Shown here: positions 34,056 to 34,433 of the stretch, piece after piece | Layout of the letters: the number at the start of each line of letters is the position of its first letter | How positions within the stretch are numbered: the stretch's first letter is position 1 | NCBI RefSeq assembly: GCF_002872475.1 | Contig: NZ_CP025682.1 | Span: 744,001 to 808,000, forward strand | Length of the DNA: 64,000 bases | Direction of reading: 5' to 3' | From: Pseudazoarcus pumilus | GTDB lineage: Bacteria > Pseudomonadota > Gammaproteobacteria > Burkholderiales > Rhodocyclaceae | Translations under genes and position numbers: made by a program | The notes under the pieces: model-generated | Databases searched by the model: none | The model's input: the letters and a program-made list of their open reading frames with translations, nothing else | What the model was told of the DNA's origin: nothing

Positions 34056-34433
34056 TCACGACGCGCCGCGGTCGGCGTTCCGGCGCATGGCCTGACGTCT
34101 GCGTACGATCCCCGACAGCCCGACCATGCCCAGCGTCGCCAGCATCGCCACCGGACTGAGCGCCGGCACCGGCACGACCGCCGATGCGGCGAGCAGCAGA
34201 TGCAGCGTGCTCTCCTTCTGGATGTTGTAGTCTTGCAGGGTGCGCCCGTCCTCCAGCGCCTTGCCGGCGAAGATCAGCCTCTGTTGGTCGGGCGGGATGC
34301 CCTCCTTGTCCTGGATCTTCTGCTTGACGTTCTCGATGGTGTCGCTGGGTTCGACCTCGAGCGTGATGGTCTTTCCGGTCAGGGTCTTGACGAAGATCTG
34401 CATGGGCGTGGCCGCGTGGGTGTCGGCCACCAT
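34056..34433 (-). CDS. Ubiquitin with C-terminal IPTL-CTERM-like sorting tail
   Basis: A 125-residue protein. After MVADTHAATP comes MQIFVKTLTGKTITLEVEP and a near-complete ubiquitin fold. By eye it matches human ubiquitin at 67 of 71 residues, differing at 28 (A to Q), 49 (Q to A), 57 (S to Q) and 70 (V to L). Lysines 6, 11, 27, 29, 33, 48 and 63 and the L8/I44 patch remain. From ubiquitin residue 72 the LRLRGG tail is replaced by AASAVVPVPALSP, a hydrophobic helix and IVRRRQAMRRN. That resembles an IPTL-CTERM signal (VPAL-SP, membrane span, Arg cluster). No E1/E2/E3-like gene is nearby. An in-frame stop just upstream excludes a longer N-terminus, so no signal peptide is visible. Most codons are host-like; one AGG Arg stands out. 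Confidence 0.93.
   Translation of the reverse strand: MVADTHAATPMQIFVKTLTGKTITLEVEPSDTIENVKQKIQDKEGIPPDQQRLIFAGKALEDGRTLQDYNIQKESTLHLLLAASAVVPVPALSPVAMLATLGMVGLSGIVRRRQAMRRNADRGAS

Follow-up and report, generated by a model that had tools for sequence, protein, structure and literature searches.

Why would a bacterium keep a nearly unchanged ubiquitin whose conjugating end has been replaced by a tail like those of sorted envelope proteins, how did it come by the gene, and where would the product act? These questions are raised by a small gene of Pseudazoarcus pumilus located in a stretch of 64,000 nucleotides (the window), which had been interpreted before from its letters and open reading frames (the sequence-only reading). 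Ubiquitin is commonly described as confined to eukaryotes, Bacteroides fragilis being the exception. Genome loci are labelled with L, database proteins with P and sampled genomes with G.

A ubiquitin gene with a C-terminal tail

The following features were assigned to the locus and its surroundings:

34056..34433, minus strand: ubiquitin-tail gene, 125 aa (start ATG 34433, stop codon 34056-34058)
34403, minus strand: internal ATG (ubiquitin Met1), a possible alternative start giving 115 aa (database form P0123)
34188..34403, minus strand: ubiquitin domain, residues 11-82, without C-terminal GlyGly (PF00240, 67/71 identity, AlphaFold2 fold)
34152..34169, minus strand: IPTL-like tail signature VPALSP, residues 89-94 (read from the sequence; family tail profile)
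34104..34154, minus strand: hydrophobic helix, residues 94-110 (AlphaFold2 helix 94-123)
34095..34103, minus strand: basic cluster RRR, residues 111-113 (read from the sequence)
34440..34442, minus strand: in-frame TGA, third codon upstream of the ATG (stop before the gene start)
34681..35424, plus strand: divergent neighbour with a signal-peptide-like start and an IPTL-CTERM tail (PVPVMSPWG... RRR; TIGR04174)

The source genome consists of one contig of 3,225,512 bases with a completeness of 99.94%, and the window gene encodes its single ubiquitin. The open reading frame has the coordinates given in the sequence-only reading and lies on the minus strand (34433 -> 34056); it starts with ATG and encodes 125 amino acids. 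The count of 67 identical residues among 71, made by eye in that reading, was reproduced against animal-type ubiquitin, the differences within positions 1-71 being A28Q, Q49A, S57Q and V70L. Every lysine is kept, as had been read (K6, K11, K27, K29, K33, K48 and K63), and LRLRGG is indeed gone: ubiquitin positions 72-76 are A-A-S-A-V, followed by VPALSP, the helix and RRR.

The protein belongs to the Pfam ubiquitin family (PF00240, 108.8 bits; cut-off 25.4). AlphaFold2, run with 48 aligned sequences, predicted a ubiquitin fold with block mean pLDDT values of 91-95 and a helix at residues 94-123. A conjugated modifier is recognised by a C-terminal LRLRGG, which the window protein lacks; GlyGly at ubiquitin positions 75-76 was found in none of 46 homologues of the tailed design and in 10 of 80 bacterial loci. 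A 16-nt inverted repeat (88%; 34016-34031 with 34059-34074) lies around the stop codon of the gene and was rejected as attC site or terminator, having neither attC ends nor a T run. Further along the window, a probable operon (36125-39930, minus strand) encodes an ABC transporter ATPase, a permease and a periplasmic adaptor, along with a regulator whose matches are of the SlmA/AcrR type.

The lack of a signal peptide had gone unremarked in the sequence-only reading, which assumed export. The in-frame TGA upstream of the ATG leaves no room for an N-terminal signal peptide in that frame, and none was found by eye upstream of the gene in the three frames of its strand. Within the first 30 residues, the best 10-residue hydrophobicity was 0.8.

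The tail, its family and exosortase H

The tail region reads VVPVPALSP, followed by the helix and RRR. The likeness to IPTL-CTERM sorting signals proposed earlier holds for the tripartite layout of motif, hydrophobic helix and basic cluster, but does not extend to a match of the window tail with the curated models (TIGR04174 and PF18203), which reported nothing at E-values up to 10 (NCBIfam) and up to 1 (Pfam). The same model check, failing for the window tail alone, succeeded for tails of homologues: four of ten scanned among the 48 family proteins described below scored over the TIGR04174 cut-off (P0152, P0201, P0216 and P0234), the ten having been chosen by hand and four of them already carrying a PF18203 flag. 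Among ten genome-locus ubiquitins picked for their tail by eye, four were over the cut-off as well (L004, L008, L022 and L034). A profile of the 48 homologous tails, built without the window, found the window tail with 46.3 bits (E = 3.3e-13), and the similarity is thus beyond chance. When 2,979 background C-termini were searched with this profile, the other matches at E < 1e-3, apart from window copies and L002, were IPTL-CTERM-like by eye; they included L083, L085 and L086 of the window's own genome, and L002 was set aside because its tail type is contained in the profile. The window tail was therefore treated as IPTL-CTERM-like by homology with tails that match the model, although it fails the model itself.

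Three IPTL-CTERM tails over the curated cut-off are encoded in the window genome, one of them in the adjoining divergent gene. This neighbour (34681-35424) scored 20.7 bits with TIGR04174 when searched with its neighbours in frame (cut-off 20.5) and 16.7 bits as whole open reading frame from 34510. Its N-terminus, MRHMRRVCGSFVVSILLCVAGSAFAQ, is signal-peptide-like by eye, no further Pfam match was obtained at E-values up to 1, and the protein is likely an ordinary exosortase H substrate. More IPTL-CTERM proteins near a ubiquitin-IPTL gene and an exosortase H gene were seen at L022 (minus strand) and L094.

The sequence-only reading knew of no comparable protein, and this uniqueness was not borne out: 229 stretches encode ubiquitin relatives, and at least 48 database proteins have the same design. 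The family was collected with the C-terminal 71 residues of the window protein as query. Of the best 120 of 5,705 matches (E <= 0.001), 57 were retrieved and nine set aside (the shorter form of the window protein, five with polyubiquitin pieces, and three with a signal-peptide-like start plus another tail), leaving 48. In these, ubiquitin is followed by a VPxLSPxGL-like motif, a helix and an RR tail, the VPxLSP motif being conserved. Where a source is named, it is among others Ottowia, Comamonas flocculans, Nitrosomonas or Xanthomonadales, and two entries are named IPTL-CTERM proteins.

Mean pairwise identity within the family was 0.84 for ubiquitin vs 0.50 for the tail. Among 46 homologues, K27 was kept in 46, H68 in 45, K48 and K63 in 44 each, L8 in 40, V70 in 37 and I44 in 33. 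The pN/pS ratio was 0.12 between L002 and L020, 0.08-0.20 between the window gene and L002, L020, L098 and L100, and looser (0.27-0.48) for L103; pS was near or above 1, uncorrected and saturated, and the low pN/pS was used alone. Judged from these comparisons, the ubiquitin part of the family looks constrained.

At the DNA level, four of 11 tailed relatives are without a signal peptide, six have one (L004, L008, L022, L034, L038 and L101) and one is ambiguous (L020, with an upstream frame that is open and contains some hydrophobic residues). The four comprise L002, L098 and L103, with stop codons close upstream, and L100, with no hydrophobic stretch ahead of ubiquitin. As protein entries, whose DNA was unseen, 45 of the 48 family members start at ubiquitin residue 1; the listing covered proteins of at most 124 aa and favours those without signal peptide. 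An exported, tailed ubiquitin as a predicted type is not in doubt, and the novelty lies in the variant without signal peptide. In the available part of PMC3237569, LPXTG and PEP-CTERM proteins are said always to carry a signal peptide; an excerpt of PMC1569441 gives 97% for PEP-CTERM proteins, and the passages at hand on sorting-tail proteins judge GlyGly-CTERM proteins without signal peptide to be mostly gene-model errors. If exosortase H handles a ubiquitin of the window type, the stated rule that sorting-tail proteins always have a signal peptide would fall.

Bacterial ubiquitins at large were surveyed in one genome per species, which gave the 229 stretches mentioned above, of which 80 loci were kept. 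By a crude rule, 65 of the 80 have a start resembling a signal peptide. Domains were searched for, at E <= 0.01, in the window protein together with 79 loci (excluding L035); among these 80 members, 18 matched the autotransporter barrel (PF03797), four S-layer, seven fibronectin and four IPTL-CTERM motif models. Taken together, export of ubiquitin looks like a broad bacterial theme, as far as sequence features can tell; the literature listings consulted yielded no description of an exported bacterial ubiquitin beyond that of B. fragilis. In L009, L013, L015, L025, L028, L039, L042, L044, L048 and others, a long C-terminal part follows a near-identical ubiquitin, which mostly has a signal-peptide-like start before it. 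A second short tail type (e.g. VPALPxxx, or VPTLPVAVL plus helix) follows signal peptide and ubiquitin in L001, L003 and L005 and in P0235, P0240 and P0241. No exosortase H match was obtained in the genomes of these three loci (metagenome-assembled genomes (MAGs) of Gammaproteobacteria), and this tail type possibly belongs to another sorting system. Ubiquitin genes were also seen in archaeal MAGs of Methanothrix/Methanotrichaceae (L012, L061 and L075, two with signal-peptide-like start), which may represent contamination.

IPTL-CTERM tails are presumably paired with exosortase H, the support in this analysis consisting of co-occurrence. The window genome encodes an exosortase H (TIGR04177, 191.9 bits; cut-off 86), and none of 14 control genomes was over the cut-off. 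A comparison of 37 genomes, the window's excluded, was made up of 32 chosen from the 80 loci and five of a 299-genome sample. Exosortase H was over the cut-off in eight of 11 genomes with tailed ubiquitin vs one of 26 with other ubiquitins (Fisher p = 3.5e-5), with a tail rule (family profile E < 1e-3 or TIGR04174 E < 0.01) that was written after the exosortase results had been seen. Nine of the 32 chosen genomes had a match at E <= 0.001; the five over the cut-off were counted. The tailed genomes lacking exosortase H over the cut-off are those of L002 and L038 (no match) and of L004 (82.7 bits vs 86). In L045, exosortase H is present and the tail seen by eye fails the rule, and this genome was counted against the association.

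The 299 genomes were drawn from the taxonomic family of the L020 genome; ubiquitin was found in six and exosortase H over the cut-off in 36. All five genomes with tailed ubiquitin in this sample have exosortase H, and the genome with the untailed L102 (signal peptide plus ubiquitin) is without it. Exosortase H was known beforehand in G160, the centre of the sample; without G160 the count is four of four, and the test gives p ~1.6e-4 (calculated by hand). In a sample of 369 genomes of the class, ubiquitin was over the cut-off in two (the window's genome and G624) and exosortase H in 14; G624 has an IPTL-like-tailed ubiquitin, apparently the L038 protein, and no exosortase H. Tailed ubiquitins are thus associated with exosortase H by genome content. 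The literature listing contained no account linking ubiquitin to an exosortase in this way.

Spread and origin of the gene

In L002 (a contig of a Nitrosomonas MAG) and L020 (a Comamonas MAG), the ubiquitin gene lies between attC sites within cassette arrays. A strict attC finder kept six sites in L002 and 12 in L020 (shuffle means 0.2 and 0.05), none in the 64-kb window (shuffle mean 0.2) and none in 16 kb around L098, L100 and L103. A weak candidate in L100, proposed by a looser finder, was not kept by the strict one. An integron integrase is encoded beside the L020 array (TIGR02249, 469.8 bits; cut-off 265). Integrases over this cut-off were found in five of the 17 genomes searched; the window's is not among them, its best TIGR02249 score being 72 bits. 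Of the 50 pairs of attC sites that can be formed between the arrays, the one made up of the 3' sites of both ubiquitin cassettes shows the highest similarity (0.898; next pair 0.836, median 0.641), and the two ubiquitin genes are 0.767 identical, as expected if gene and attC site had moved together. At least part of the spread of the tailed family thus proceeds as integron cassettes, as observed for two relatives, L002 and L020; an account of ubiquitin as an integron cassette was absent from the literature listing. Both arrays (L020:4926-11644 and L002:1287-6235) contain many small genes with unknown products, and a 104-aa gene of L020 (7913-8227) recurs inside an open reading frame at 5060-5584. 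The copy in the window stands alone in the chromosome, with no attC site, and since its genome has no integron integrase over the cut-off, it would be at most a former cassette. Other mobile elements were searched as well: 12 IMG/VR viral contigs (L119-L130) encode ubiquitin relatives, the phage search gave no match, and the plasmid search gave three records, none covering 80% of the query.

The high identity had been taken earlier to imply recent transfer from a eukaryote. This was not supported: eukaryotic ubiquitin itself barely changes, and identity therefore does not date a transfer, and the ubiquitin part has a third-position GC of 0.93, vs 0.57-0.86 in seven nearby genes. The AGG codon suggested as a relic is present at R42, and AGG/AGA make up two of eight Arg codons vs eight of 382 in the seven nearby genes, but one of the two lies in the tail, which is not eukaryotic, and the pointer is weak. 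Q28 and A57 were rejected as bacterial markers, as they are present in polyubiquitin matches (35 and 73 of 279 repeats). A ubiquitin tree, from which L002, L020, L037 and part of the family were omitted, places the window protein with L038, P0171 and P0239 in its smallest clade (support 0.73), which contains no eukaryote; in larger clades, at supports between 0 and 0.92, all groups are intermingled, and the tree carries too little signal. Two protein searches were swamped by polyubiquitins. No clear sign of a recent origin from a eukaryote emerges. A recent transfer, or contamination of the assembly, would fit the 67/71 identity to animal-type ubiquitin, the codon figures and the lack of ubiquitin in 149 relatives (150 genomes searched including the window's own, only this one positive). 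Against either stand the single, nearly complete contig, the high third-position GC, a tail common to a bacterial family and the near-invariance of eukaryotic ubiquitin, and we consider both very improbable.

Gene order gave few shared neighbours. Between window positions 24000-46000 and L114, L115, L116 and L117, nothing was shared besides the ubiquitin protein and overlapping frames except an ABC ATPase (33%, L114) and a 29% match (L115).

Predicted membrane topology, possible function and known systems

For this ubiquitin fold without conjugating end, with an IPTL-CTERM-like tail and no signal peptide, a place in the inner membrane is predicted. The C-terminal helix would serve as reverse signal anchor for inserting the N-terminal part of about 88 residues (by Sec or YidC), and the ubiquitin is predicted to lie outside because of the positive-inside rule. 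Exosortase H would then likely cut at VPALSP, so that ubiquitin is passed to the envelope or released. Exported ubiquitin may serve as a decoy that engages the ubiquitin-binding proteins of grazing protists or other eukaryotic neighbours, or alternatively as an antibacterial protein like the secreted ubiquitin of B. fragilis; these roles are proposed in view of the lysines and a good part of the binding face, which persist although the conjugating end is gone. We consider the chances of this explanation evenly balanced, with function its least certain step.

Arguments for it are the match to the tail profile, the co-occurrence of tailed ubiquitins with exosortase H, the lack of a signal peptide, the constraint, the mobility and the precedent of SCO2900, a bacterial protein that has no signal peptide, is anchored C-terminally and was suggested to face outwards (PMC3087755, as far as available). 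Against it count the failure of the window tail to match the IPTL-CTERM models, the signal peptides of six of the 11 tailed relatives, and the tailed L002, L004, L038 and G624 without exosortase H over the cut-off, the link being one of genome content. A folded ubiquitin, moreover, may resist passage through the membrane. ProW, with its N-tail of 100 residues, offers another precedent. In the mammalian example treated in the available part of PMC7616256, an Oxa1-type insertase handles N-tails no longer than about 50 residues, which counts against the model.

Other readings were weighed against the same observations. The protein might be a tail-anchored ubiquitin that faces the cytoplasm and bacterial partners, with the C-terminus of the helix outside and the likeness to IPTL-CTERM tails a by-product of anchoring. 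This would suit the absence of a signal peptide in the window protein, L002, L098, L100 and L103, and 14 of 20 bacterial tail-anchored candidates are predicted to face inwards in the accessible portion of PMC3087755; but the Arg cluster behind the helix must then cross the membrane, contrary to the positive-inside rule, and the conserved VPxLSP motif and the exosortase H association are left without a reason, which makes this orientation rather unlikely. It is likewise doubtful, though worth keeping in view, that exported ubiquitin is an ordinary display domain, a small stable fold and nothing more, with no eukaryotic target. The occurrence of bacterial ubiquitins with autotransporter barrels (18/80 scanned), S-layer (4) and fibronectin (7) domains speaks for such a use, but a spacer need not keep K27 in 46/46, H68 in 45/46, K48 in 44/46 and K63 in 44/46 homologues, an objection tempered by I44, which is kept in only 33/46.

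Decay of an export gene is a further candidate, in which an ancestor with signal peptide, ubiquitin and IPTL tail lost its signal peptide in the window copy, now inactive. Sister proteins with a signal peptide (L004, L008, L022, L034, L038 and L101) are in keeping with such an ancestor. Yet no remnant of a signal peptide lies upstream of the window gene, the frame is intact, and its third-position GC is high; a signal peptide is missing as well in 45/48 homologues (in a listing limited to 124 aa, a limit favouring such proteins) and in four further loci at the DNA level, and pN/pS between the window and L002, L020, L098 and L100 is 0.08-0.20, with synonymous sites near or at saturation. We judge decay improbable.

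The export and cutting of a membrane-inserted, outward-facing ubiquitin remains our preferred reading. A wider version of it, in which ubiquitin is a mobile, integron-carried gene whose product, unable to be conjugated, is a signal-peptide-free exosortase H substrate, driven across the membrane by the tail, cut and used outside against eukaryotic grazers or bacterial rivals, is put forward tentatively, at clearly less than even chances. A near-identical ubiquitin occurs in a family across several bacterial groups, twice as an integron cassette, and the content of the genomes links it to an enzyme of protein sorting; through this family, it becomes testable why bacteria keep ubiquitin nearly unchanged without its conjugating end.

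In comparison with known systems, the B. fragilis protein BfUbb (gene ubb) is likewise a bacterial ubiquitin without C-terminal GlyGly that acts outside the cytoplasm (PMC3352274, PMC5705921; available parts). According to the same excerpts, it is 63% identical to human ubiquitin, has an N-terminal signal peptide and is secreted with a mature form of 76 aa. The window protein, in contrast, is 94% identical over 71 positions, has a helix-Arg tail and has no signal peptide, which in the BfUbb type directly precedes ubiquitin. Other bacterial ubiquitins, fused to autotransporter, S-layer or choice-of-anchor U parts, share the near-identical ubiquitin domain and differ in having another C-terminal module and mostly a signal peptide. 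Bacterial tail-anchored proteins resemble the window protein in lacking a signal peptide and in having a single C-terminal helix, with an outward-facing example suggested; they differ in that the available part of PMC3087755 gives no sorting motif or exosortase partner for them. Integron gene cassettes are represented by L002 and L020, both flanked by attC sites in arrays, with an integron integrase next to one of them; for the window copy, in contrast, the strict finder gave no attC-like site within 64 kb, and its genome has no integrase over the cut-off. From the IPTL-CTERM proteins (TIGR04174, PF18203) that accompany exosortase H (TIGR04177), the window protein differs in its missing signal peptide and in its own tail, which the models do not report; it shares with them the C-terminal order of motif, helix and Arg cluster, an exosortase H in the same genome, and a tail with homologues that pass the model.
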